From positions 1 through 27,316 of the IMG/VR virus record IMGVR_UViG_3300001533_000660: DNA of 27,316 nucleotides. One strand, 5' to 3'. Of this stretch, positions 8,071 to 25,067 are shown piece after piece. Position numbers and translations under genes: made by a program. The notes beneath the pieces were generated by a model, which saw only the letters and a list, made by a program, of their open reading frames with translations, made no database searches and was not told the DNA's origin. The stretch comes from a virus. Each line of letters starts with the position of its first letter. Position 1 is the first letter of the stretch.

Positions 8071-8093
8071 TTCTACAAACGATGGAGGGCATT

Positions 8094-9377
8094 ATGCCTA
8101 CAGAAAAAGTAACTCCTGACGTGCAGGCTCTCGCCGGCGAGGCTCAGGCCTTGCTTGACACTGCACGCAATGAGCAGCGCGACCTGACAGCGGAAGAGTC
8201 CGAACGATTCGCCAAGATAACGGGCGATCTTGCTTCGCTTCGCGCGGCCAACGAGCGACAGAAGACACTCGACAGCCAGCGGGCTTATTGGGAAGGCTCG
8301 ACAGGTCACACCCCGATTACCCTTCCAGACGGGCCCGGCGAAAAACAGGAACCCAAACCTGAAAAGCAGTACCGCAACTTTGGCGAATGGTTTGCCGGTC
8401 TTCAGAGACGCGAAGGCGCGGCCATGTCGATGACAGAGTACCGCGGCGGCAATACCGAACAGCGCGCGGACAATCTCGTCATGGGCACAGGCTCTCTCGG
8501 CGGCTACCTGGTCCCGGAACAGTTCCGAAACGAGATCATGATGGTCTCCGGTGAGGCCGCGATTGTCAGACCTCGCGCACAGGTGATTCCAGCCGGGTCT
8601 CCTCCCGATGCTCCTATTACCATGCCCGCTTTTGTGCAGGGCAGTGACGGCGTGTATGGCGGTGTTGCCGGACAGTGGATCGGTGAGGCCGGAAGCAAAC
8701 CTCAGACGGACGTTGCCTTCTCGCAGATCAGCCTTGAGCCGAAAGAGTACGCGGCTTATATGCGGCTCTCTGACAAACTCCTGCGCAACTCTTCGGCGAT
8801 GGGGGCCTTTGTAACCAACGCCATGCGCAACAAGATTGCGGCTGAGCAGGATTACCAGTTCCTGCGCGGTGATGGTATCGGCAAGCCTTTGGGCGTTCTG
8901 AACGCCGCTGGCAAAAAGAACGTCGCGCGCAACACGTCCAGTGATGTCAAATACGAGGATATCCTCGGCATGATGTCAGTGCTTCTGCCTGGAAGCCTGG
9001 CGGGTGCGGTGTGGGTTGCCAACATTACCACGATGCCCAAAATCGCCGAACTCGAAGACGGCGCGGGCAACAACATTTTCATCAATGGCGACGCCACGAA
9101 GAGCCTGCCCGCGACCCTCGCCGGTGTCCCGCTCCTGTGGAATGGCAAGATGCCGACGCTCGGGAACGAGGGCGACCTGTGCTTGGTGGACTTCTCCTAC
9201 TACCTCATCAAAGACGGGTCCGGGCCTTTCGTCGCTTCCTCTGAGCATGTCCACTTCACCACAAACGAAACCGTCATCAAAGCCTTTGTGAATGTTGACG
9301 GTCAGCCTTGGGTCACGTCCGCGCTCACACTCGAAGACGGATCAACTACGGTCAGCCCGTATGTCATTCTGAAATAA
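8094..9377 (+). CDS. Major capsid protein (HK97 fold)
   Basis: Builds the icosahedral head. I chose ATG 8094 (427 residues) rather than ATG 8082, because GGAGGG at 8084-8089 lies between them and can only serve 8094. Residues 1 to about 105 form a charged helical delta/scaffold domain (QALLDTARNEQRDLTAEESE). Cleavage is expected somewhere before NLVMGTGSLGGYLVPEQFR, which starts the mature protein's N-arm region. Then follow the family features MMVSGEAAIVRPRAQVIP, WIGEAGSKPQTDVAF, QDYQFLRGDGIGKPLGVLN and a C-terminal ALTLEDGSTTVSPYVIL. Length and order fit the Phage_capsid family. Confidence 0.95.
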   Translation: MPTEKVTPDVQALAGEAQALLDTARNEQRDLTAEESERFAKITGDLASLRAANERQKTLDSQRAYWEGSTGHTPITLPDGPGEKQEPKPEKQYRNFGEWFAGLQRREGAAMSMTEYRGGNTEQRADNLVMGTGSLGGYLVPEQFRNEIMMVSGEAAIVRPRAQVIPAGSPPDAPITMPAFVQGSDGVYGGVAGQWIGEAGSKPQTDVAFSQISLEPKEYAAYMRLSDKLLRNSSAMGAFVTNAMRNKIAAEQDYQFLRGDGIGKPLGVLNAAGKKNVARNTSSDVKYEDILGMMSVLLPGSLAGAVWVANITTMPKIAELEDGAGNNIFINGDATKSLPATLAGVPLLWNGKMPTLGNEGDLCLVDFSYYLIKDGSGPFVASSEHVHFTTNETVIKAFVNVDGQPWVTSALTLEDGSTTVSPYVILK

Positions 9378-9395: not shown

Positions 9396-10100
9396 ATGAA
9401 CAGATTAAGCGAAGTATGCGCCATTGACATTGGGCTTGAACCTCAAGCGTTGAGTAACACCAATGCAACCGGCGACTATCGGAAGATGGACATGCACCAG
9501 CGTTCGCTCTGGATTCTTCAGGGCGGTGCAATGGCCACAGGCACGACCACAAAGATTGAGTTGTACGAAGCCACCTCAGCCGCCGCAGGTAGTGCTCAGG
9601 CCATCACAGGCGCGACGGCGACAATCACAGCCAACACAGATGTCACAGAGGCGACCGTTGATCTTGCGGGTGTAGGCACTGACGATGTTGTGACCATCAA
9701 CAGCATTGATTTCACAAAGGCTGACGTGACCGCCGCGGCCTCGCGTACATTCGCCAACGCGGCCGGACTCGTGACATGCGTCAATGACGCTACCTACGGC
9801 GTCGCAGGTGTCACCGCTTCGGCTGATGGAACCACCGTGACCCTGAAGGCGTCCGACGAACCCGCCGGAAGCGCGATTACGGTAAGCAAAACTGATGCTG
9901 GCGGAACCATCACCCTGGCGACCGTCTCCGCTCAGGCTTACGTGGAACTCGACACGTCCGACATGGACATTGTTGACAGTTTCGACCACGTTGCCGCGAA
10001 AGTCACCACGACCGCCGACACCGTTGTCGGCGTAACCGCCCTTCGCTATGACGGCAGGTTCACCCCGACACAGCGCGTCGGCGATTCGGCGATTGTCTAA
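9396..10100 (+). CDS. Putative head decoration/virion structural protein
   Basis: A 234-residue, Thr/Ala/Val-rich beta protein directly after the major capsid gene with an AAGGAG ribosome binding site. The first 50 residues contain GDYRKMDMHQRSLWILQGGA and KIELYEAT. The middle (ATITANTDVTEATVDLAGVG through VTLKASDEPAGSAITV) looks like an inserted Ig- or hook-type beta domain, with the pattern V-T-I-N-x-x-D-F-T and V-T-L-K-A. The end, TALRYDGRFTPTQ, resumes the core. Position and composition suggest capsid decoration or an auxiliary head protein; no specific family is recognised. It is separated from the next gene by a strong hairpin. Confidence 0.65.
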   Translation: MNRLSEVCAIDIGLEPQALSNTNATGDYRKMDMHQRSLWILQGGAMATGTTTKIELYEATSAAAGSAQAITGATATITANTDVTEATVDLAGVGTDDVVTINSIDFTKADVTAAASRTFANAAGLVTCVNDATYGVAGVTASADGTTVTLKASDEPAGSAITVSKTDAGGTITLATVSAQAYVELDTSDMDIVDSFDHVAAKVTTTADTVVGVTALRYDGRFTPTQRVGDSAIV

Positions 10101-10164: not shown

Positions 10165-11427
10165 ATGAAAATATTTTATGTGTTTACAATCCTCCTCTTG
10201 ATAGTAGCACCTTCCGCGATTGCTTCGGATGGTGAGACATGCGGCGAGGCTGTAGACGCTACCAGCACGACCAAGGCGGATGTGTTCCCGCTCACAACCG
10301 ATGTTCATTGGTTCAAATACTTCTTCCCAATCGAGGGCGCGGATATACAAATCACCAACGCCACGGCCGCAACGATTTACAGTTCAGACCTTGGCGGATG
10401 CACGACCGAAGGCGCACTGAACTTCACCTATGGCGGGCTTGATACTTTCGACTATGACACCGGACCTGTTGACGCAGGGGAGAAGTCTTTCCTGATTCAG
10501 TCGAGCACTCTTGATGTCGGCGCGTTCGGTATTGATGTCACTGACAACCCCACTTACACGCAGACCCCGACGGTTACAGAGACGCCCACTCCTACAGAGA
10601 CGCGCACCCCGACGGAGACTCCGACCGTAACGGAGACGCCACTGCCCACAAGTACTCCAACGCCCACGAATACGCCGACGCCCGCCGTAGCCTCTCAATG
10701 GGACGTCAATGAGGATTGGGAGACGCTCGTAAAGGCTGATGCCCCGCTCACCGAATCCGCTCCCTCGGGGTGCTTCCTGTTCTGGAACAAATCAGGATCG
10801 GCCCTCGATAGTGGCGCGATTGTGAAGTTGGGAACATCTGCTATCACTATTGTAGCAAGCGCGACCGGTAGCGCGTCAATGACCATTGCAGACAATCTCG
10901 CCACAGAACGCGGGCCTCATGTGCTTGTTGCCGGCCTTGGGTCCGCGTCTACCGGGGCAATAGCAATAAGCGGATACCTGCACAACGGAACCTACAAGAC
11001 GGACGCCACATCATACACGGAGCAGACGCTTGTCAAACTCGATTACGCCTGGTCAAGGATCACGAACGCAGTAGTGACAGGCTCTACCGATGTGACTGTT
11101 GAAATCAAAGCCTATCCCATCGGAGCAATTGCTGGAGTGTCGGACGATGATGCGAACGGCTTTGAAACTCTGGGCGTGTTGTATCGAGCCGTTGACTCTA
11201 CGAGTACGACGGTCGCGGATAATGCCCTTTGTTGGGTGCGCGTGGTCGGGCAGATCACACAGGCGCGGGTCTCTGATGTTGCGGTGTTGACGGGCGACAA
11301 ACTCGCCACCGATGCAACGGGAACTTGGGATGAAACGGCGGAGACCGATGAAGACACGATACTCGCCCTTGCCCTTGAGCCTTGCACCTCTTGGGGACAG
11401 CGCGTGTGGATATACATGCGGCAATAG
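10165..11427 (+). CDS. Signal-peptide protein with PPC-like domain, Thr/Pro linker and decoration-like C-terminus
   Basis: A 420-residue protein in three parts. Residues 1-20 (MKIFYVFTILLLIVAPSAIA) are a textbook Sec signal peptide with an A-I-A cleavage site. Residues about 21-130 (DGETCGEAVDATSTT, DVHWFKYFFP, FLIQSSTLDVGAFGIDV) resemble secreted PPC-type beta domains that start D-x-C and contain a DW-F-K-Y core. Residues about 133-174 are Thr/Pro repeats. The remainder is a beta-rich domain containing VSDVAVLTGDKLATDA and ILALALEPCTSWGQRVWI, which resembles capsid-decoration (DUF2190-like) proteins. It lies inside the head gene cluster, so a structural role is expected, but a Sec signal on a virion protein is unusual. 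The N-terminal part may be an acquired secreted segment. Function is inference. Confidence 0.7.
   Translation: MKIFYVFTILLLIVAPSAIASDGETCGEAVDATSTTKADVFPLTTDVHWFKYFFPIEGADIQITNATAATIYSSDLGGCTTEGALNFTYGGLDTFDYDTGPVDAGEKSFLIQSSTLDVGAFGIDVTDNPTYTQTPTVTETPTPTETRTPTETPTVTETPLPTSTPTPTNTPTPAVASQWDVNEDWETLVKADAPLTESAPSGCFLFWNKSGSALDSGAIVKLGTSAITIVASATGSASMTIADNLATERGPHVLVAGLGSASTGAIAISGYLHNGTYKTDATSYTEQTLVKLDYAWSRITNAVVTGSTDVTVEIKAYPIGAIAGVSDDDANGFETLGVLYRAVDSTSTTVADNALCWVRVVGQITQARVSDVAVLTGDKLATDATGTWDETAETDEDTILALALEPCTSWGQRVWIYMRQ
10561..10688 (+). repeat. Thr/Pro-rich coding repeat tract
   Basis: Degenerate tandem units coding for T-P-T-E-T-P-type peptides (for example TPTVTETPTPTETRTP) in the secreted-looking protein. 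Codons vary between units, so this is a protein-level linker rather than an exact DNA repeat. A shorter tract of the same kind follows the signal peptide of the protein at 20800. Confidence 0.85.
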
Positions 11428-14889: not shown

Positions 14890-15080
14890 AACTTATCAAG
14901 CAGGGCTTCACTCCCGATCAGGTCCGGGGCTTCACCCCACAACAGGCATATTACACAGTTGCAGACGATGATCTGGTGCGCGGTGACGTAATTTTCGAAA
15001 TGACTCGGGGACTCACAAGAGACGAACAAGCTGCAGAGACCTTGTTAAGACTTGGTGAAATCACATGGCTGGAAGATTAG
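14859..15080 (+). CDS. T part of the tail assembly chaperone, reached by -1 frameshift
   Basis: This frame has no convincing start of its own. It reads HRYSEGEIRLKLIKQGFTPD, QVRGFTPQQAYYTVADDDLV, then helices to LLRLGEITWLED and stop. The core (IRLxLIKQGFTPxQV...Q-A-Y) is characteristic of the T domains of siphophage GT proteins. In lambda and relatives, gpGT bridges the tape measure and the tube protein; the G:GT ratio set by frameshifting matters for tail length and assembly. It overlaps the tape measure start by 16 bases. Confidence 0.8.
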   Translation, partial: HRYSEGEIRLKLIKQGFTPDQVRGFTPQQAYYTVADDDLVRGDVIFEMTRGLTRDEQAAETLLRLGEITWLED

Positions 15081-17317
15081 GAAGCGCGGTTTTCCTCATT
15101 GACGGAAACAATAAAGTGTTGCTCGACAGCCTGAAGGCTTCCGAGCAGGGCGTGAATCGCTTTGCGTCAAATGTAGAAGAAAAACTTCGCAAGGTAAGCC
15201 AGGGCTTTGTCAGTGTCGGGAAGAAATTGTCAATAGGACTGAGCCTTCCTCTTGCAGCTATTGGAATATCATCAATCAAAGCGGCCTCCGATCTTGAAGA
15301 GACGCGCAACAAAGCGCGGGCGGTGTTCCGTGATCTTGCTACAGAGGTAGAGGCGTGGGCGAATGTTCATGCTTTCGCGGCGAAGCGCGCCGCCGCCGAT
15401 ATCCTGCGGTACATGAATACTCTGCAAGACACCTTTGTGCCTCTCGGGTATTCGAGAAAAGAGGGCATGGAGCTATCGAAGACTCTCACGAAACTTGCTA
15501 TTGACCTCGGGTCATTTAACAACATTAACGCCGGGGAAGCGTTGCAGAGTCTTCAGTCTGCGCTTGTCGGCAATCATGAAACCGTGCGGCGGTATGGAAT
15601 CATCCTCACCGAAGCGAATATACAGAACGAAATATTCAGGCTTGGACTTGCCGAAACCAAAGACGAAATCACGGACATGATGAAGGTGCAGGCCCGTATG
15701 AGTTTGATCCTCAAGGGGTCAAAGGATGCGATGGGGGACGCCGAAAGAACGGCCGGGAGTTTCGCCAACAAGATGCGGGAAATGAAAGCCGTGTTTGGCG
15801 ATGTCCGGGAAGAGATCGGGGACAGGCTGATATCTCAGTTTGACGGGCTTATCCGCAAGGTGATTGACCTCGGTTACTGGTTCAAGGGCCTCGACGATTC
15901 GACGAAAGATTGGATCGTTACCCTCGGGGGGGCAACCGTCGCCGTCGGGCCGACGCTCACGGTGTTAGGTCGACTTGGCTTTGCGATCATCGGATTGAAG
16001 GCGACATTGCCAGTATTCGCCGCGATCACGGCGGCAACAAGCAAGTGGGCCTTTGCCCTTGCCGGCACTATCGCGAGTGGAGGGACCATCGGGATAGCCT
16101 TGGCAATCGCCGGGGCAGTAACAGCGGGCCTTGCGCTCGCGAGTGCGATGGGGTATCTTGACCAAAAAATCAACACAAGCATGAGGACGGTCCAAGACCT
16201 GAATGGTGCCCTCAAGGAACTTGAGGCTGGACTTGTAGATATCGACAAGGCTTCGGCGGGCGACGAAAGGCTCGCCGCACTTGAGCGGCAAAAAGTCACA
16301 GCCGAAGAGTTATTGAAGCAGGCATCGAAATATATGTGGGAAGCCAGAGTTCCCATAAATATGTTCATGGAATCCCCATATATTGCCGGTCTTCAAAACA
16401 ACATCAAGCAGATCGAGAAGGCCATAGAGATCGAAAAGAAGTTGATGGAGGAGAGTGTCAAGAATCAGGACGACATGAAGAAATCGCGCATGGAATTGGC
16501 GCGCGAAATGGATACCTTCAAAACGCCGGAAGAAAAGCAGATCGAGGAAACCGAACGCCTGTTGAAACTGACGGACGCGGCGTATCCGCTTGAGGATTCC
16601 ACCCTCCTCGATAGGCGGCACAGGTATCGAGCAGAGCAGGCAATCACAGAAGCGCATGAAAAGAAAATGCAGGAGATGGAAGACGAGCGCATTGAGAACG
16701 AGAAGGCCATGCGCGAGGAACAAATGAGCATCATTAGAGAAGCGCGCATTGCTATGGCCAACGCCACACAAGGCGAAACCGCGGCGCGCCTGCTTGCCCT
16801 TGATTACGAGAAGGAAGAACGCCTCGCCCGCATACGCGAAACCCTGACGGAAGAAGCGGAGATCAGGGAAGCAATGATAGCGGTGAACACAGATATCGAA
16901 AAGCGTAAGACGGAACTGATAGCACAGGAACAGGAACGCGCGAAACAGTTACAGCAATCACAACTCCGGCAGGCGATGTCAGAGACGGACAAGCGACTGC
17001 AACAACTGGACCGGGAAGCCGCCGCGATTGATGCAGTAACGGAAGCAGAGAAAAACCGTACCCGGTCTCTGTTCGGAATGACAAACGCGCTTTCGTTTTT
17101 TCGGCAGTTGCAGGGCGATGTGTTACGCAACGACTCAGAGCGCATGACGTTTGCACCTTCCCTCGCGCGCGTGAATCAGCAAACCCCTATTGCAGACGAT
17201 TTCGCAAGTGCCTCCCCCGGTGGTCGATCCGGCATTGTGTCGAAACTCAACAGCATGATTGATGAGTTGCGGACGAGTAACAGAATCCTTGAAGACAGGT
17301 TGAACCAATTCGCATGA
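15065..17317 (+). CDS. Tail tape measure protein
   Basis: Determines tail length and is ejected with the DNA. The 750-residue protein begins MAGRLGSAVFLIDGNNK, with a hydrophobic segment near 56-71 (LSIGLSLPLAAIGISS). The conserved tape-measure core follows: FNNINAGEALQSLQSALVGN near 151-170, TVRRYGIILTEANIQ, MSLILKGSKDAMGDAERTAG and SFANKMREMKAVFGD. A strongly hydrophobic block at about 300-365 (FAIIGLKATLPVFAAITAAT, IGIALAIAGAVTAGLALASA) could form membrane-spanning helices. Residues about 390-690 are charged coiled coil. At roughly 1.5 angstrom per residue the tail would be near 110 nm. No peptidase or lysozyme motif was seen. The stop overlaps the next gene by ATGA. Confidence 0.93.
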   Translation: MAGRLGSAVFLIDGNNKVLLDSLKASEQGVNRFASNVEEKLRKVSQGFVSVGKKLSIGLSLPLAAIGISSIKAASDLEETRNKARAVFRDLATEVEAWANVHAFAAKRAAADILRYMNTLQDTFVPLGYSRKEGMELSKTLTKLAIDLGSFNNINAGEALQSLQSALVGNHETVRRYGIILTEANIQNEIFRLGLAETKDEITDMMKVQARMSLILKGSKDAMGDAERTAGSFANKMREMKAVFGDVREEIGDRLISQFDGLIRKVIDLGYWFKGLDDSTKDWIVTLGGATVAVGPTLTVLGRLGFAIIGLKATLPVFAAITAATSKWAFALAGTIASGGTIGIALAIAGAVTAGLALASAMGYLDQKINTSMRTVQDLNGALKELEAGLVDIDKASAGDERLAALERQKVTAEELLKQASKYMWEARVPINMFMESPYIAGLQNNIKQIEKAIEIEKKLMEESVKNQDDMKKSRMELAREMDTFKTPEEKQIEETERLLKLTDAAYPLEDSTLLDRRHRYRAEQAITEAHEKKMQEMEDERIENEKAMREEQMSIIREARIAMANATQGETAARLLALDYEKEERLARIRETLTEEAEIREAMIAVNTDIEKRKTELIAQEQERAKQLQQSQLRQAMSETDKRLQQLDREAAAIDAVTEAEKNRTRSLFGMTNALSFFRQLQGDVLRNDSERMTFAPSLARVNQQTPIADDFASASPGGRSGIVSKLNSMIDELRTSNRILEDRLNQFA

Positions 17318-18009
17318 GCGCAACCGAGAAGGTATTCTCTCGCCGTGTTACTGAAACCCGTGATGGTCGCAAGGGGCAACGCATATATACACAAGTGCCC
17401 TGGGATACCCGAGATGATGACGTGCCTCAGATGGACGAGGCTTTCCCCGATGATTCAGATTTGCGCGTTGTCAGTCGGGAGTTTCGCCCGATCAAGGTTG
17501 ACGGGGACGATTATGACTACTGCGAAGCACTGATTCAGTATTCGACAAAGGAACGTCTCCGAATCAAAGAATGGTGGGAACTCGCAAGCGAAGGCACGAC
17601 ACAACCCGAAACCCTTACATGGCAGAGCGACAGCACCGAAGAAGAGGTCAGGGTTCCCCGTCTTGTCGTGGAAGGCGTCTACTGTCGGCAGGTTTACAGG
17701 ACGTACAACCCCATCTCCATGCTTGCGGAGGCGGTCGGGAAAGTCAATGACGCGACCTTCGGCAAGTTCCCGGCCGGAACCCTGCTCTACCTGGGTCCTG
17801 ATATCCGCGTGATATATCAATCATTCATCGGTGCCAGTATCGGCGGCAGGGGTGGAATTACGTTTACAGGCCTTCAACCGGAAAATACGAGAGATTCACG
17901 ACTGACCTTTACGAGTCTACCGGATTCGGGAGGCTCCTGTAATGCGTATTCGCAACCTCGAACCCGGCGACTCCATAAACGACCGCGAAAGGATGCAGTC
18001 ACTTATTGA
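17314..18009 (+). CDS. Tail protein after tape measure, C-terminus probably frameshifted
   Basis: As it stands the ORF gives 231 residues and overlaps the next gene by 68 bases, out of keeping with the 1-14-base overlaps elsewhere. The body (EKVFSRRVTETRDGRKGQRI, RVVSREFRPIKVDGDDYDYC, TWQSDSTEEEVRVPRLVVEG, GTLLYLGPDIRVIYQSFIG) is convincing, but the end (RTRRLHKRPRKDAVTY) is basic and unlike it. Adding one G to GGGG at 17849-17852 switches to the frame that reads RGWNYVYRPSTGKYERFTTD, LYESTGFGRLL and stops at 17940-17942. There the stop forms a TAATG overlap with the next gene and the product is 209 residues. A distal tail or baseplate role is inferred from position; no family is recognised. 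Confidence 0.7.
   Translation: MSATEKVFSRRVTETRDGRKGQRIYTQVPWDTRDDDVPQMDEAFPDDSDLRVVSREFRPIKVDGDDYDYCEALIQYSTKERLRIKEWWELASEGTTQPETLTWQSDSTEEEVRVPRLVVEGVYCRQVYRTYNPISMLAEAVGKVNDATFGKFPAGTLLYLGPDIRVIYQSFIGASIGGRGGITFTGLQPENTRDSRLTFTSLPDSGGSCNAYSQPRTRRLHKRPRKDAVTY
17850..17942 (+). pseudogene. Likely true C-terminal frame of the gene at 17314
   Basis: Thirty codons plus stop in the -1 frame reading GWNYVYRPSTGKYERFTTDL, then YESTGFGRLL. It has no own start. It fits the preceding gene if the G run at 17849-17852 is five instead of four bases long. Confidence 0.6.
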
Positions 18010-18454
18010 CGGTGTCCGGCAACTTGAAAAGATCACGGTCGGCTACGGTCTCAAGATTCGCAAGGGTCCGTCTGGCATCAATATCGACTTTGACGAAAGC
18101 CTGTTGACTACAGCCGATACATCCTTTTGGGCGAAGATCACGGGCCGAACGTCTCTTGGTAGTAACCGGTGGTCATACACGTTTGCCAACGTCACGAAGG
18201 GCGGGTCGGTCGGATACGGCGGCACCTGGACAAACGGGAGCACCGCCGGGACCGCGTACAACTCAATCGAGCAGATCAACAACGGGGCGGGCATCGAGGG
18301 GAACGGGGTTGACGTGGACGGCACGGACTTCCCGTCCGGGTTTTCGATCCAGCCGGTGCCGACAAACTCAATCGTCAGGATATTCGAGACCGCGAACGGG
18401 GGGACCACAGAATATTGGTTCTCCTACGAAAACGGAATAGACGGGACTTGCTAA
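17942..18454 (+). CDS. Hypothetical tail-tip protein
   Basis: A 170-residue protein starting MRIRNLEPGDSINDRERMQS with a GGGAGG ribosome binding site at 17928-17933. An N-terminal helix (LIDGVRQLEKITVGYGLKIR) is followed by KGPSGINIDFDESLL, then a Gly/Thr/Asn-rich beta domain containing TDTSFWAKITGRTSLGS-like sequence and IEGNGVDVDGTDFPSGFSIQ and ending YENGIDGTC. The beta domain resembles the small phage structural domains found in tail-tip proteins that wrap K-I-T-G, but I cannot name a family. One base separates it from the next gene. Confidence 0.7.
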   Translation: MRIRNLEPGDSINDRERMQSLIDGVRQLEKITVGYGLKIRKGPSGINIDFDESLLTTADTSFWAKITGRTSLGSNRWSYTFANVTKGGSVGYGGTWTNGSTAGTAYNSIEQINNGAGIEGNGVDVDGTDFPSGFSIQPVPTNSIVRIFETANGGTTEYWFSYENGIDGTC

Positions 18455-18455
18455 C

Positions 18456-19460
18456 ATGGCTCCAGGGATAGCACATATGGCGTGTTGTTGTAGCGAAGAA
18501 ATCTCCGACCCGGATGTCGGGTTCCTGGTTTGCTATATCGAGTTCATCGAACATACAGGACAGTATTCAAACAGAACAAAGGAGCGGCGATGGGAAGAGG
18601 ACTATTACGGGGAGCCGACAAGCGACCCCTACAACACGCTCCTCACCGGCAATTTGTTTGACCCAAGCGAAGACACGGACAGATACCTGAGTAGCGCAAG
18701 TTTCAGCACGATAATCACGAGGGGCAACAACGTCCGGCACTTCCGAAGGACTCATTGGCGCAATGACGAAGGGGTCGGGCAAGGCTATAACCCAGGACCC
18801 GGCACGATACTTAAGGGTTTGTGGAAGTCGGCGGGTGTTGGACTCAGTTACTATGATGGCGTATCCAAGTACGGGAAAGAGATCGCCGAGAAATCCGGCT
18901 CATATATGCTTATCAGCGCGAGGGCTTACACCGGAGACCGCCCACCGGCATCGTGGCTATATTATGTGACACTGCAAATAGCACCTTGGGTGAAGACGGC
19001 AACGGTCAGTGACACCACTGTATACACTTACGGGGAACAGCGGACATATACGAAATCATACACGCCCGCGACTGTCAGTATCCACAGTCATTCCGGCATC
19101 ACCTTGCCGGGCTCGGCCCCATTCGCGGCCGCTGAGGCAGGCACCCTTATCGACTCGTTTACTGACACCGACGGATGGACCGGGCGCATACTGCTAAATG
19201 ACATTCCGGGCTTCGAGACCAACGGGCGGGCCATGATATCCCTGACCGGCGAGATCAGCACCCCTTTGGCGTTTGTTGAGCCTCTATCGTACGAAGACGC
19301 CACGGATACGACGTTACGAAATATAGATGAGTGGGCGACCTCGCCGCAGTCCCAGAATCCCTACAACTGGTACACGGGGCGCGACGACACGGGGAGTTCT
19401 ACCGACGCGACGGGCGACAAAATGCTAGAGGCCACTTTGCTGGAACTGTACCGAAAATAG
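18456..19460 (+). CDS. Hypothetical tail protein with Cys-rich N-terminus
   Basis: A 334-residue protein with an unusual MACCCSEEISDPDVG start and no signal peptide. The body is rich in Tyr, Thr, Ser and Asp (YSNRTKERRWEEDYYGEPTS, GQGYNPGPGTILKGLW, SARAYTGDRPPASWLYYVTL), and the end is helical (KMLEATLLELYRK). Composition and location between tail-tip and fibre genes suggest a baseplate or receptor-side structural protein. No catalytic motif was recognised. Met1 has only a weak ribosome binding site; translational coupling from the preceding stop is likely. Met8 is an alternative start. Confidence 0.65.
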   Translation: MAPGIAHMACCCSEEISDPDVGFLVCYIEFIEHTGQYSNRTKERRWEEDYYGEPTSDPYNTLLTGNLFDPSEDTDRYLSSASFSTIITRGNNVRHFRRTHWRNDEGVGQGYNPGPGTILKGLWKSAGVGLSYYDGVSKYGKEIAEKSGSYMLISARAYTGDRPPASWLYYVTLQIAPWVKTATVSDTTVYTYGEQRTYTKSYTPATVSIHSHSGITLPGSAPFAAAEAGTLIDSFTDTDGWTGRILLNDIPGFETNGRAMISLTGEISTPLAFVEPLSYEDATDTTLRNIDEWATSPQSQNPYNWYTGRDDTGSSTDATGDKMLEATLLELYRK

Positions 19461-19475
19461 GAAGGCTAAAACCTT

Positions 19476-20798
19476 ATGGGTCTATTCAGATGGCGCGGCA
19501 ACGGAGCGGGGACAAAAACGGCATGGGCCGACGGTCGGAATTGGATCGACGAAAACGGGGACGCATACCTTCAGGCGCGCTATCCCGGCTCGGACGCCGC
19601 GACCTATGACGATGTGCTTTTTGACGCGGCAATAACCAACTCCCCCGCAGGGTATAACGCAGTGACGGCGGGTGATGAAGTCTTGCTATCGCTCAAGGTC
19701 GGGGAACTCTACAACGGCACCATCGCAAGCACTGGAACGCATCTCAAAGTTGACGTATCGGCTACCGGCAATGAGGTCATGCTCGCGGCAAAAGCGGCGG
19801 GTGATATATATATTGACGGCGCGGGGACCGGGCTGGAAGTGGTACGGGTCAGCAACACAAAATCGAGTTCCATGATTTACCTCGGGGGCACCATTGGGAG
19901 CCTTGCGATCACGCGCGGGAATGTAACACTGCAGGCAGACGCCGAAGTATCAACACACCTGATTTGCTCATATCACGACAGCCGGATAAGCGATACAAAA
20001 TTGACAATACCCGCAGCGGCTACAGTAACACCTACAGACGGCTTTGTGGTCAATGGTGGCAGTATCACATGCGCGGCTGATATAAACACTGTGGTGATGT
20101 CTGACGGGCGTTTCACGATGACCGGCGGCACCACTACCCTGCACCTGTTCGGCGGGGAGTTTGTTTGGAACGAAGGGACCATCACAACCGCATGGTTACA
20201 CAGCGGGTCTCTTGATGCTTCACAAAGCGCGACGGCAAGGACGGCCACGAAACTCTTTGCCTTTGCCGAATCGACTTTCGATCTTGAAAACGGTCTCCGA
20301 AATATCTCAATCGGTGAGTTCTGGGAGTACCAGGGCGGCGACTTCCGGTGGGATCGGGGTCAGAGATTTACAGACCTCACGCCGGTTGCACAGGAGGCAA
20401 GCGCAACGATCACAAGTACCACTCCGGGCTTCTATGCACAGACGCACGGGCCGGAACTGGAAGCGGGAACCCTTGTGCATATCATTGGGGAAGTGGACGG
20501 TACGCCGATCATTACCGTCTCGCGAGCCGACGTTCCGAGCACGACCCCGGCGGTTGCTTACGTTGCCTCCGATATCGCCGTCAATGGTGGCGGGAACGTG
20601 TATTTCAACTATCGCCACACGGGGCGAAGCGGTTTGGATGTCGGCAAGGGTCTCTTTGTCGGTACTGACGGCAAGCCCGCTCAAGAAGGCGACGCGAACT
20701 TCCCGGCGACCGGCGATATATTACAGCGGATCGGGTTTGCGAGTGCTTCGACGATTGCCAATATCAATATAGATTCAAACACGATAGTCAGGAGTTGA
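19476..20798 (+). CDS. Putative tail fibre/spike, beta-helix-like
   Basis: A 440-residue, Gly/Thr/Ala-rich protein with a GGAAGG ribosome binding site (19460-19465). It begins RWRGNGAGTKTAWADGRNWI, and from about 60 to 260 has regularly spaced short hydrophobic strands with turns (GNEVMLAAKAAGDIYIDGAG, LGGTIGSLAITRGNVTLQAD, VVNGGSITCAADINTVVMSD, MTGGTTTLHLFGGEFVWNEG), the pattern expected for a right-handed beta-helix or stacked fibre. The C-terminal 120 residues (AGTLVHIIGEVDGTPIITVS) are a different beta region. No glycosidase or lyase motif could be verified. Receptor binding is inferred from location at the end of the tail operon. Confidence 0.65.
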   Translation: MGLFRWRGNGAGTKTAWADGRNWIDENGDAYLQARYPGSDAATYDDVLFDAAITNSPAGYNAVTAGDEVLLSLKVGELYNGTIASTGTHLKVDVSATGNEVMLAAKAAGDIYIDGAGTGLEVVRVSNTKSSSMIYLGGTIGSLAITRGNVTLQADAEVSTHLICSYHDSRISDTKLTIPAAATVTPTDGFVVNGGSITCAADINTVVMSDGRFTMTGGTTTLHLFGGEFVWNEGTITTAWLHSGSLDASQSATARTATKLFAFAESTFDLENGLRNISIGEFWEYQGGDFRWDRGQRFTDLTPVAQEASATITSTTPGFYAQTHGPELEAGTLVHIIGEVDGTPIITVSRADVPSTTPAVAYVASDIAVNGGGNVYFNYRHTGRSGLDVGKGLFVGTDGKPAQEGDANFPATGDILQRIGFASASTIANINIDSNTIVRS

Positions 20799-20799
20799 C

Positions 20800-22272
20800 A
20801 TGAGATTATCCCTTGTTATTGCTTTGATCCTTTTGCCTGTTGTCGCTTTTGCGCAGACCTCAACGCCGGTGCCGACTGCTACATTTTTTCCGACCCCGAC
20901 ACCTGACACGCCTGCCACCCCGACAGCGCGAAACATCGCCGTGTTTTATGGCGAGATCGGGGAGAGTGTCCTCGGTCCTGCGAATGCCAACAACAGGCCG
21001 ATACTCGACGGCGGGTGGATTACATACCCGACGCCAGTGACTGTACCCAACGGGGGGACAGGTGCGCAATCCCTGACGGATCACGGGGTGCTCACAGGCT
21101 CCGGGGCCGATCCCATTACCGCGCTTACGGTGGGCGACACCGGGGAGGTGCTGGTGGGTGTCACCGGGGATGATCCGACGTGGCGGGAACTTACCGCCGA
21201 CGATATCGGGGGATCATTTGAAAGCATCACCCTCGACAACGGCACGGACGCATATTCAGTCACAGCACAACAGGAGTACAGTGCGGCCACCGGGGCGAGG
21301 TTTTTGCTCTCGAACGGTATCACGGTATCGGCCACCAATTACCCATCCCTTAAAGCAGGCCCGGACTCGTGCGTCATGTGGCATGACGGGATTGACGCAG
21401 AAAGCGCGAAGGCGTCTATATATTACTCGACTGCTGTGCTCCCTGGATATTTTGTGATCCACGATTGGGCGACCGAAAACGGAATCAAGGTCGTATCGTC
21501 AACCGGCGTTGACATGGCCTGCCCTCTCACTGTCGATTCGGTGACAAACGAGGGCGACCTGACACAGGGCTCACATATATATATGCCGGAGTCGTCCTCA
21601 ATAGTATGGAAGGACGGAGGTTCCCATCTCGCCTCGATGGGGTATGGTGCTGGGGGCGGCGATGAAGACATGCTAAATCTGATGTCTCTTATTGGTAATG
21701 TGTACATCAGGGCCTATGATGGCGATATCGATATCGAAGCATCGGGGACGATCAACCTGGCAACCGCTGTTGCAATTTCGGGAGACCTAGCACTCGGCGC
21801 GGGGGTGGCCTTAACATCCGCGGATCACACGACAGAACCCTTCCAATGGCGGTTTAACGGAGGTCCGCATAACGGCACCGGCTGGTCTCAAAACGTTGGG
21901 AATCAGTACGCATATAGTGCAAGTGCGAGTGACGCATATTTGCTTACTCTCACCGGGTTCCCGGCGCACTTGAACGGCGGCAAGGTAATCATAACAGATA
22001 TTGAGTTGGAAATGGAGACCACAACAAACGACGCATACCTATATGTTGTGAGGCTACGGTTTCCCGACGGATCGGGCGGCATAGCATCCCCATATTCTTC
22101 AGGCGTAATCACCGAGGCGTCCGGAGAGACCGGGGATTTCACCTGGTCCGTGTCTGATCTTTCGATTGAGGTGGACGATTACCACGGGGCGCCAATCCTC
22201 AATTTGGAATCGGCAGGCGATACCGAGGTCCGTCTATTCTGCGGGGAAATAAGGGGATATACAACAAAATAA
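20800..22272 (+). CDS. Signal-peptide, Thr/Pro-rich tail-fibre-like protein
   Basis: A 490-residue protein. Residues 1-18 (MRLSLVIALILLPVVAFA) are a Sec-type signal peptide, followed by a Thr/Pro linker to about 44 (TPVPTATFFPTPTPDTPATP). A tail-fibre-type motif comes next, VPNGGTGAQSLTDHGVLTGS and VLVGVTGDDPTWRELTADDI, which is common in phage fibres and collar proteins. Then come strands (ASGTINLATAVAISGDLALG) and a C-terminal beta domain (LSIEVDDYHGAPILNLES, EVRLFCGEIRGY). AGGAG at 20790-20794 sets the start. The signal peptide is unexpected for a fibre protein and matches the layout of the protein at 10165. Confidence 0.7.
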   Translation: MRLSLVIALILLPVVAFAQTSTPVPTATFFPTPTPDTPATPTARNIAVFYGEIGESVLGPANANNRPILDGGWITYPTPVTVPNGGTGAQSLTDHGVLTGSGADPITALTVGDTGEVLVGVTGDDPTWRELTADDIGGSFESITLDNGTDAYSVTAQQEYSAATGARFLLSNGITVSATNYPSLKAGPDSCVMWHDGIDAESAKASIYYSTAVLPGYFVIHDWATENGIKVVSSTGVDMACPLTVDSVTNEGDLTQGSHIYMPESSSIVWKDGGSHLASMGYGAGGGDEDMLNLMSLIGNVYIRAYDGDIDIEASGTINLATAVAISGDLALGAGVALTSADHTTEPFQWRFNGGPHNGTGWSQNVGNQYAYSASASDAYLLTLTGFPAHLNGGKVIITDIELEMETTTNDAYLYVVRLRFPDGSGGIASPYSSGVITEASGETGDFTWSVSDLSIEVDDYHGAPILNLESAGDTEVRLFCGEIRGYTTK

Positions 22273-22289
22273 TCACGGGGCGGCAGACA

Positions 22290-22565
22290 ATGACAAAACA
22301 GGACGTGCTGAGCAGGTCAAAGACAGTTATCACCCTTGCGCTCGAATCGCTTTTGATCGTCTCTATCATCTTCGGCCTTGTGGTCGGCGGCGTGGCGATG
22401 AATCTGGAGAAGCGCATCAGTGAACAGGTAGAAGCCTGCGTGATCGAAAAGCAAAAGCCGATAGAAGTTGAGTTGCGGCATATATCGGAAACCCTGATGG
22501 AAGTGCGGTCGGACGTGAAGCAACTCCGCGATGACGTGGCGACACTGAGGGCGAAGGTTAAATGA
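22290..22565 (+). CDS. Small membrane protein with coiled coil, holin- or spanin-like
   Basis: A 91-residue protein with one strong transmembrane helix at about 15-37 (VITLALESLLIVSIIFGLVV, then GGVAM) and a charged coiled coil after it (VELRHISETLMEVRSDVKQL, RDDVATLRAKVK). The layout of a single membrane helix followed by a helical cytoplasmic or periplasmic tail fits holin-like or i-spanin-like proteins, and the position after the fibre genes fits a lysis region. It could also be an unrelated membrane protein. The ribosome binding site is weak (GGGGCGG). Confidence 0.6.
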   Translation: MTKQDVLSRSKTVITLALESLLIVSIIFGLVVGGVAMNLEKRISEQVEACVIEKQKPIEVELRHISETLMEVRSDVKQLRDDVATLRAKVK

Positions 22566-22566
22566 C

Positions 22567-23019
22567 ATGGACAACTATAAACGAGTGAAGGTTGTTGGCC
22601 TTGTAGATGATGGTATCCCTCAGTCGATATCAAACGACGGGAAGCGAGCGACAGTGCTTTCGCCGATGCTTATACGGCATCCGTTCGGAGATATCGAGAT
22701 TGACGCCGGGTACCAGCATGACGGGTTCTCGACACCGTTCGATAATCTGATAACGTCACGATGGGATGAATGGGGGCTTGCCGCACTTGCTCATGACCGG
22801 ATGTATTTTTGCGGATACGTTACGATGAACGGCAAGCAATTGCGGATATCGAAGCACTTCGCCGACGCGGTAATGATGGATATCATGAAATGGGCTATCT
22901 GGCAGGCCGGGTACCCCTGGTATACACGTTGGCGCAAACAGATCAAAGCGCGGTTGATATACGTGGCGGTGATTCTGTTCGGCGGCTTTGCCTGGAACAA
23001 GCACAGAAAAAAAGATTGA
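22567..23019 (+). CDS. DUF1353-family protein
   Basis: A 150-residue protein with the DUF1353 pattern: IRHPFGDIEIDAGYQHDGFS, TPFDNLITSRWDEWGLAALA, HDRMYF, and a later DIMKWAIWQAGYPW. The conserved H-D/Y core (ALAHDRMY) and the F-S-T-P loop (here GFSTPF for the usual GFxTDxxSxP) are clear. A hydrophobic C-terminal segment (LIYVAVILFGGFAW) may be a membrane anchor. DUF1353 genes are common next to phage lysis and tail-end genes but have no established function. It begins one base after the preceding stop. Confidence 0.8.
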   Translation: MDNYKRVKVVGLVDDGIPQSISNDGKRATVLSPMLIRHPFGDIEIDAGYQHDGFSTPFDNLITSRWDEWGLAALAHDRMYFCGYVTMNGKQLRISKHFADAVMMDIMKWAIWQAGYPWYTRWRKQIKARLIYVAVILFGGFAWNKHRKKD

Positions 23020-23044
23020 TTTTGTTTTGTTGGACTGCTTTTGT

Positions 23045-23070
23045 GGCCTTACTCTGAATGGGGTAAGGCC
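23045..23070 (+). terminator. 8-bp hairpin between DUF1353 and lipoprotein genes
   Basis: Arms GGCCTTAC (23045-23052) and GTAAGGCC (23063-23070) are fully complementary around a 10-base loop. The flank before it is T-rich but only GTTATTATG follows, so a plus-strand rho-independent terminator is doubtful. It may be an attenuator or RNA-processing hairpin. Confidence 0.45.
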
Positions 23071-23087
23071 GTTATTATGTAGGCATC

Positions 23088-23471
23088 ATGAGACAAACAT
23101 TACCCCTATTAGTTTTATTCGTCGGATGTGCAATGACCCCGCAGCAGTACGCCAACAACCTGCGCACGCTGGAAGAGATAGGGCACTCTTCCGGCGTTGT
23201 GTATGCCTACCATGTCCTCGAATCTCGCGACCTCGACACGCTCAAGGGTCTCAATAGTACCAGCAAAATGGCGTGGAGATCCTTCCGGCTCGGGCGGGTA
23301 CCGACAAAGGAACTCAATATCATATCCGGTTACAGCGTCGGCGTGTTCATCTCGGAAGAGTTTGCCATGTTTACGGCGGTATCTGGTCCGGTTGAGGAGG
23401 CCCCGGCACAGGCGTTCTTTTATGGGTTCACTGAGGGAATATATACAGTGATACAGGAAGCACAGCGATGA
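23088..23471 (+). CDS. Predicted lipoprotein, unknown function
   Basis: A 127-residue protein with a short N-terminal hydrophobic segment and lipobox LFVGC, with Cys at residue 14, predicting lipid attachment after signal peptidase II cleavage. The mature part (MTPQQYANNLRTLEEIGHSS, RVPTKELNIISGYSVGVFIS) is not recognised. In lysis regions a small lipoprotein can act as an outer-membrane spanin, but this one is longer than typical Rz1 proteins and lacks a proline-rich body, so superinfection exclusion or another envelope role is equally possible. The ribosome binding site is weak (TAGG). Confidence 0.65.
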   Translation: MRQTLPLLVLFVGCAMTPQQYANNLRTLEEIGHSSGVVYAYHVLESRDLDTLKGLNSTSKMAWRSFRLGRVPTKELNIISGYSVGVFISEEFAMFTAVSGPVEEAPAQAFFYGFTEGIYTVIQEAQR

Positions 23472-23545
23472 CCGAATTGGACATGACATGAACGTGTGAA
23501 ATACAGATTCCGCTATGGGTTACGGCGGCTGAAAGGAAAACAAAA

Positions 23546-23713
23546 ATGGATGAATACCAGTTGGGCATATTCGTGGCGGGGTTGCTATATCAAATAGCAC
23601 AATCGCGCAACGAGGATTACCAGGAGTTGCTGAGGATCGCCATGCAATACAAAGCAAGCGGGCCGGAACCTCGGGATTGGAACGAGATCGACGCGAGTAA
23701 TGAGCCTGCGTAG
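23546..23713 (+). CDS. Small hypothetical protein
   Basis: A 55-residue protein starting MDEYQLGIFVAGLLYQIAQS and ending DASNEPA, with a good AAAGGA ribosome binding site at 23532-23537. The first half is helical and modestly hydrophobic; the second half is hydrophilic. It is too short for a family call. A 7-codon ORF (ATG at 23468) lies just upstream and is probably meaningless. Confidence 0.6.
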   Translation: MDEYQLGIFVAGLLYQIAQSRNEDYQELLRIAMQYKASGPEPRDWNEIDASNEPA

Positions 23714-23780
23714 TGTTCCAATGGCGGTCCGTTACTGCACATCGTGGCGGGCCGCATACTTCCACAAGACGGGAGAAGAG

Positions 23781-25067
23781 ATGAAACACATGAATAAACT
23801 GGAGCGCGTTCTGGAAATGCGCAGTGCCGGCAAGACCGTTCCCGAAATTGCAGATGCTATGGGAATTGGAAAAAGCACAGTCTACAGGTGGATAGCAAAT
23901 TCAGGGACAACACAAAACGGGAAGGCAACATCGAGCAATGAAGGCACGGCAAAAGTAAGCACTGAGCGCGACGAATCCGGCAATCGGTGTGAAGTCACAG
24001 TCAAGAGCCTCGACGTTCGCACCGAAGATGATGCACTGAGGGTGGCGAACATTGACACATCCATTTGGTACGTTGACAGGTGCGTTGTGAACTCGTGGGA
24101 GGTGACGCTTGGCGATACTGCAACGGGAGGGATGGGGCCTCAGACCTTCACAAATTGGCAGGTGAAACTGCACCTTGAGCGCAAGGCACCGAAGGCGATC
24201 CAGGACGGCATTGCAGAATTGCTTACCAGGCTTCCAGTTGCGAAACCGCAGCGCAAAAAGGTTGACGCGAGCGGGCATCTCATGTCCGAAATTTCAATTT
24301 ATGACCCGCACTTCGGAAAACTGTCATGGGGCGAAGAGGTTGGCGAAGACTATAACTTGAGCATTGCCGCAAGGCGAATGACGGACGCCTTCTCGGATTT
24401 GCTGTATAGGTCTGGCAACGAGGTTTCAGAAATCCTTATTCCAGTTGGCGGCGACTATCTGCACATAAATGACCGGACAAACTCAACCCCACGGAGCGGC
24501 AACCGTCTCGACGTTGATTCCAGGCTCCCCAAGATCTTTAGAGCGGGTGCCAGTGCATTGATAAATTGCATCGGGATGGCGCGGAAACCTGGGGTGATGG
24601 TGCGCGTCAAAATTCTTCCAGGAAACCACGACCCGGACACGGTGTTTTATATCGGCGAGGTCCTTTCCGCATATTACCGGAACTGCGAAGATGTTGAGAT
24701 CGACAACTCCCCGAAGGCAAGAAAATACTATCAATGGGGCGTGGGCATGATTGGGTTCTCGCATGGTTGCGACGAAAAGCCAACCGACCTCCCATTGCTC
24801 ATGGCGGGCGAGGCTCCTGAGATGTGGGCGGCCACAAAACACCGTGAATTTCATGTCGGGCATCTACACAAAAAGAAAACCATGCATCACGTAGCGGGGG
24901 ACAGCGTTGGTCCCGTCTATGTGCGCGTCCTGCCGTCCATATGCGGCCCTGACTACTGGCATTACGCAAAGGGCTACACTATGAGCAGGAAGGCGGCTGA
25001 GGCGTTTGTCTGGCATGACAGGCACGGGTGCATGGATCAGCTTACATCGTTTGTGGAGGAAGCATAA
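23781..25067 (+). CDS. HTH-metallophosphoesterase fusion
   Basis: A 428-residue protein from ATG 23781, chosen because GGGAGAAGAG precedes it; an in-frame ATG at 23700 lacks a ribosome binding site. Residues about 6-40 are a resolvase-like helix-turn-helix (KTVPEIADAMGIGKSTVYRW). From about 165 the calcineurin-like metallophosphoesterase motifs appear in order: YDPHFG (Asp175/His177), GGDYLH (Asp225), LPGNHD (281-284), FSHG (His328) and VGHLHKK (360-363). These coordinate two metal ions and cleave phosphodiesters or phosphomonoesters. The pairing suggests an enzyme aimed at nucleic acid, but the substrate is unknown. Similar proteins occur in phages near genome-end or nucleotide genes. Confidence 0.85.
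   Translation: MKHMNKLERVLEMRSAGKTVPEIADAMGIGKSTVYRWIANSGTTQNGKATSSNEGTAKVSTERDESGNRCEVTVKSLDVRTEDDALRVANIDTSIWYVDRCVVNSWEVTLGDTATGGMGPQTFTNWQVKLHLERKAPKAIQDGIAELLTRLPVAKPQRKKVDASGHLMSEISIYDPHFGKLSWGEEVGEDYNLSIAARRMTDAFSDLLYRSGNEVSEILIPVGGDYLHINDRTNSTPRSGNRLDVDSRLPKIFRAGASALINCIGMARKPGVMVRVKILPGNHDPDTVFYIGEVLSAYYRNCEDVEIDNSPKARKYYQWGVGMIGFSHGCDEKPTDLPLLMAGEAPEMWAATKHREFHVGHLHKKKTMHHVAGDSVGPVYVRVLPSICGPDYWHYAKGYTMSRKAAEAFVWHDRHGCMDQLTSFVEEA

Follow-up and report, generated by a model that had tools for sequence, protein, structure and literature searches.

Why would a fibre-type gene of a tailed phage begin with what looks like a secretion signal? Textbook tailed-phage assembly is cytoplasmic, and we know of no tailed phage that assembles its fibres from the periplasm. 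The gene in question (20800–22272) lies in a 27-kb IMG/VR virus record (27,316 nucleotides; hereafter the window) from a tailed phage whose capsid protein is of the HK97 type (gene at 8082–9377; Pfam Phage_capsid, 9e-47). This gene, the capsid gene, the gene directly 5ʹ of the fibre-type gene (19476–20798) and a second leader-bearing gene (10165–11427) are all on the + strand. We favour the reading, at a probability of about 0.62, that the product is a Sec preprotein with a stalk, a fibre repeat and a tip, that it is one of a widespread set of leader-bearing phage proteins, and that it would be exported and then become virion-bound or remain free.

Organization of the fibre-type gene

ORF 20800–22272 encodes a 490-aa product and is the final large gene of the tail block. 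Upstream lie a tape-measure-like gene at 15065 and unassigned large ORFs; downstream are genes for a TM coiled-coil protein and a lipoprotein-like protein. According to the ORF list and the sequence, a large leaderless protein is encoded immediately 5ʹ (19476–20798), and the ATG at 20800 falls one base after its stop. A ribosome-binding site, AGGAG, is present at 20790–20794, and none of the in-frame alternative starts (codons 9, 12, 24 and 48, all TTG or GTG) has such a site. Hence, a misplaced start is ruled out, and translation from the annotated ATG, on which the earlier note had relied, is upheld. Between the TM coiled-coil ORF (22290) and the lipoprotein-like ORF (23088), window positions 22567–23019 match PHROG 1158 (tail assembly chaperone, 8.7e-11) despite their downstream location.

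The product begins with MRLSLVIALILLPVVAFA, a Sec-type leader called by rule (aa 1–18; 20800–20853), with a positive n-region, a hydrophobic core of 8–15 residues and small residues at −3 and −1, as in Sec (SPase I) signals. The predicted cleavage site is AFA/Q, with the cut before Q. After the cut come QTSTPVPTATFFPTPTPDTPATPTAR, then VTVPNGGTGAQSLTDHGVLTGSGADPITALTVGDTGEVLVGVTGDDPTW, and then 350 residues without homologues in any search, which form a unique C-terminal part (aa 141–490; 21220–22269). A Thr/Pro linker with a density of 14/20 residues occupies aa 19–44 (20854–20931). The fibre domain (aa 71–140; 21010–21219), which has homologues in more than 100 viral loci, is the NGGTGA...HGVLxGxG domain of GGTGA-type tail fibres, and its phage fibre motif reads NGGTGAQSLTDHGVLTGSG. 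Residues 74–135 are 64.5% identical over 62 aa to a fibre protein in another locus, L390 (E 3e-15), and the GGTGA-type motif that had been reported for this gene thus reflects real homology. The product contains only three cysteines and has no match worth mention in Pfam, PHROG or PDB. AlphaFold2, run without an alignment on this protein and on the second leader-bearing protein of the window (ORF 10165), gave mean pLDDT values of 31 and 36.

Leaders were called throughout by a home-made signal rule, not by SignalP; this rule passes 1.2% of composition-shuffled N-termini, and 4.3% for shuffles of the 20800 and 10165 products. None of 5219 internal 45-mers taken from window proteins contains a signal whose core is as hydrophobic as seen here, and 5000 shuffles of either protein never produced its Thr/Pro density. 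The combination of leader and linker, found in the whole window only in these two proteins, is therefore beyond chance, as the earlier note had argued. A search with the signal peptide plus Thr/Pro pattern returned mostly short lipoproteins. We propose that the leader directs the protein across the inner membrane and is removed by a cut after AFA18, and that the Thr/Pro stretch may act as a flexible stalk, with the phage fibre repeat and then a variable tip beyond it.

A second leader gene, beside the capsid gene

The second leader-bearing protein (420 aa; 10165–11427) is encoded between the capsid gene, which marks the head slot, and the gp6-type connector. Its leader, also rule-based, covers aa 1–20 (10165–10224; predicted cleavage AIA/S) and its Thr/Pro linker aa ~129–176 (10549–10692). 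The two genes had been described as having the same layout; leader and linker are indeed present in each, but in this protein ~105 residues of other sequence lie between them. Comparison of the two N-termini, which had been proposed as a check, detected no homology (p = 0.28), and the Thr/Pro linker is not conserved. Neither product has a lipobox, sortase motif or C-terminal membrane segment visible by eye. Hence, of the shared export or anchoring strategy that had been suggested, what stands is that leaders are found repeatedly on fibre-type genes and tend to occur together in the same phage, as described below; the anchoring signals were not seen, and the linker is not the shared element. 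Full-length relatives were found for neither protein among viral contigs and isolate phages, nor for the 20800 product among bacterial contigs.

Leader genes are also present in the head slot of other phages. In L053, L067 and L069, whose capsids are related to that of the window, this slot is occupied by one, which in L069 lies in the same place as ORF 10165, between capsid and connector. L119, in which the capsid was assigned by eye, also has a leader gene in the head slot. In G006 a leader gene immediately follows the capsid gene, and in G001 one adjoins ORF 19964, taken as the capsid gene by inspection. Thus, the two-slot layout of the window recurs. Leaders are nonetheless not a property of a capsid clade: among 352 ORFs downstream of 60 related capsids there were 10 candidates, and only those of L053, L067 and L069, and perhaps that of Caulobacter phage Kronos, are convincing. 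Since most capsid relatives of the window are without leaders, and leaders occur in 12 separate fibre sequence clusters, the “phage group” to which the arrangement had been ascribed does not hold as a clade.

Two observations concern the position after the capsid gene. In Kronos, a cultured phage, the hypothetical protein encoded right after the capsid gene (L003:6575–7309) begins with the leader-like MKTTRFAHASLLALCAAAALAPP. In the window itself, the post-capsid protein encoded at 9396–10100 has 30–42% identical post-capsid relatives in L011, L072, L052, L018/L019 and L012, and judging from these matches it is a probable decoration-type family.

Leader frequency among fibre genes and their neighbours

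GGTGA-type tail fibres of environmental phages share with the window protein the NGGTGA repeat domain and a late tail-gene position; unlike it, nearly all are leaderless. In a sample of 58 unique NGGTGA ORFs chosen regardless of leaders, three passed the rule and two (L241 and L275) are convincing. Both share the HGV subtype of the window protein, which prompted a scan for this subtype; it returned at least 120 viral stretches, and a slightly stricter pattern gave only six matches in 84,980 bacterial and archaeal genomes. An HMM was then built from aa 71–140 of the window protein, and viral ORFs with a complete 5ʹ end were counted. After two doubtful calls were dropped by eye, 19 of 142 fibre-domain ORFs (13%), in 12 sequence clusters, had a leader, or 17 of 140 if L241 and L275 are left out. 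Control ORFs of the same loci had one in 15 of 315 cases, several of these being fibre-like neighbours. Counts vary between scans because the start-choice and leader rules differed slightly. The count of leader-keeping homologues that had been called for is therefore available for the fibre domain and not for full-length relatives. A tblastn search of isolates with the consensus motif gave no match, probably because BLAST masks the motif as low complexity.

Leaders are clustered. Among neighbours within 5 kb of leader-bearing fibre ORFs, 25 of 156 (16%) have a leader, compared with 20 of 787 (2.5%) for leaderless fibre ORFs (odds ratio 7.3; p = 9e-10, an optimistic value, since ORFs of one phage are non-independent). 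The loci are phage, with terminase, head, portal and tail PHROGs. G002 has six leader-bearing ORFs, mostly fibre- or spike-like, within 15948–24985, plus a Tat-like leader at 24982; G006 has a run of four, separate from its head-slot gene; and G001 has several, one a GH54-like arabinofuranosidase (PF09206). As far as can be read from sequence, runs of leader-bearing fibre-, spike- and glycosidase-like tail genes are a feature of many soil and water phages, cultured ones included.

Further observations concern individual genes. L448:9342–11066 (− strand) encodes a leader-bearing GH54 arabinofuranosidase-like protein amid phage tail genes (PF09206, 5.6e-11), with no match among isolate phages. 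L451:4982–7777 (932 aa) ends a run of leader-bearing phage genes; it starts with MKLTRRNLGRLFLG, a Tat-like twin-arginine leader, and matches a bacterial Ig domain (PF17957) under the curated cut-off. In L241, L275 and L362, a gene for a small protein with a hydrophobic N-terminus lies immediately 5ʹ, on the reading strand, of the leader-bearing GGTGA gene; the small proteins have a common C...C.L..QRN.A-like pattern, and the two genes are a possible conserved pair. L045:3629–4138, in a tail-completion-like position, has C-terminal TTTILP repeats and is cut at the contig end.

The composition of the runs bears on whether the proteins would ever be part of the virion. They could instead be secreted products, expressed late together with the lysis genes, that borrow fibre domains and serve as adhesins, depolymerases or receptor decoys. 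The GH54-like enzyme, a weak beta-helix match and the Tat-like leader are consistent with this, as is the leaderless fibre-like gene that adjoins the run in G002, since a phage whose exported proteins stay apart from the virion would be expected to keep such a gene. The motif is also found in secreted proteins of bacteria (L445–L447). Against this reading, the leader genes in the head slot (the window, G001, G006, L119 and L053/L067/L069) lie beside the capsid gene, and in Tunturi 1, discussed below, it would leave the phage with no obvious receptor-binding protein. We regard it as a serious possibility, though one that probably does not hold.

Evidence for export and the fate of the proteins

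Do the leaders function in export? Tail proteins can have hydrophobic segments, and a hydrophobic N-terminus might serve in virion attachment or membrane penetration, with no secretion signal and nothing exported. Several features of the leaders argue against this. They have an n-h-c layout with AxA sites, and AxA/Q is found in 26 of 51 leader ORFs as against 31 of 219 leaderless ones, an enrichment that is partly circular, because the rule wants small residues near the cut, yet does not require Q. In L241, L275, L326 and L331 the leaders are divergent and the residues after the predicted cut alike (AYxGxxPLLV), although for L326 and L331 the comparison assumes an internal start. This is the pattern expected of signals selected on property and not on sequence. 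The Tat-like twin-arginine leader and the cysteine richness described next also count against an attachment segment, which we consider improbable.

The cysteine data come from cultured Acidobacteriota (Tunturiibacter) phages. Tunturi 1, 2 and 4 (PP887698, PP885685 and PP885687; PMC11924767) resemble the window in having Sec-type leaders on tail genes, consecutive ones in Tunturi 1 and 2. They showed no sequence homology to the window protein, and the leader ORFs of Tunturi 1, unlike the window gene, lack the GGTGA motif. The five leader ORFs of Tunturi 1 contain 2.06% cysteine, four times the 0.50% of its other structural ORFs (p ~1e-12; 8e-13), and the leaderless tail genes of Tunturi 3, which has the same host strain, contain 0.44%. 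In metagenomic sets the excess is weaker (p = 0.014 and p = 0.067), and the window protein has so few cysteines that this line of evidence is not strong for the window itself. Taken together, these patterns, all of them indirect, suggest that the leader most likely works as an export signal, and we rate export as probable.

Between Tunturi 4 ORF114 and its Tunturi 1 homologue, ORF17, 19 of 21 cysteines are conserved. The region of homology begins at about residue 390 in one protein and straight after the leader in the other, and a leader starts both. Such retention through domain shuffling argues against the leader being a functionless passenger, recombined from a host secreted gene, as do the presence of leaders in 12 clusters and the two unrelated leaders of the window phage. 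Thr/Pro linkers are common among bacterial secreted proteins, and the N-terminus of the window protein is without a homologue; both points fit a passenger, a reading that we nevertheless find distinctly improbable.

We return to the favoured reading, in which the 20800 protein would be one of a widespread Sec-leader set of phage fibre, spike and decoration-type proteins, encoded in runs, that occupies tail genes and sometimes the slot after the capsid gene. The leaderless state of most domain homologues (87%) counts against it, as does the lack of a known precedent for fibre assembly from the periplasm. Folding of the exported proteins would take place outside the cytoplasm, after which they would either be added to virions, at or after lysis, which we slightly favour, or act free at the cell surface; given export, we put virion membership at about even odds. 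It is a more tentative proposal, and on balance an unlikely one, that some tailed phages finish their virions outside the cytoplasm, with Sec-exported fibre, spike or head-decoration proteins that are disulfide-folded in the periplasm and dock at or after lysis.

Known systems offer partial parallels. PblB of a pneumococcal prophage (PMC4508584) resembles the window protein as a tail-like phage protein for which a signal peptide is predicted, and it acts as an adhesin; it differs in its Gram-positive host and unrelated domains, and S. mitis PblB is freed as the lytic cycle permeabilises cells. Lambda Lom, an exported outer-membrane protein encoded between the tail spike and fibre genes (PMC12309495), is a precedent that fits the free-protein reading, although it is a beta barrel without fibre domains. 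In the open-access literature searched, the leader-bearing fibre pattern is undescribed; subscription journals were mostly outside this scope, and the claim of novelty is thus provisional.

What is the significance of these leaders? Some phage surface proteins may exit the cell interior before reaching the virus or their target. Should leader-bearing fibres belong to the virion, some of it would be made in another compartment, which would permit disulfide-rich receptor-binding domains. If the proteins are free, phages would secrete runs of fibre-like adhesins or glycosidases. The question is approachable in the cultured Tunturi phages. Tunturi 1 is a plaque-forming podovirus (PMC11924767) with a leader on every spike- or fibre-sized late gene, and hence its receptor-binding protein probably bears a leader. 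The Tunturi paper does not mention signal peptides and contains no mass spectrometry (PMC11924767), so its “virion structural protein” annotations appear to be by homology. One of the Tunturi 1 proteins, ORF78 (L469:4745–5947, − strand), annotated as a tail protein, has a lipoprotein leader followed by a long Pro/Thr-rich linker, reminiscent of the linker in the window.
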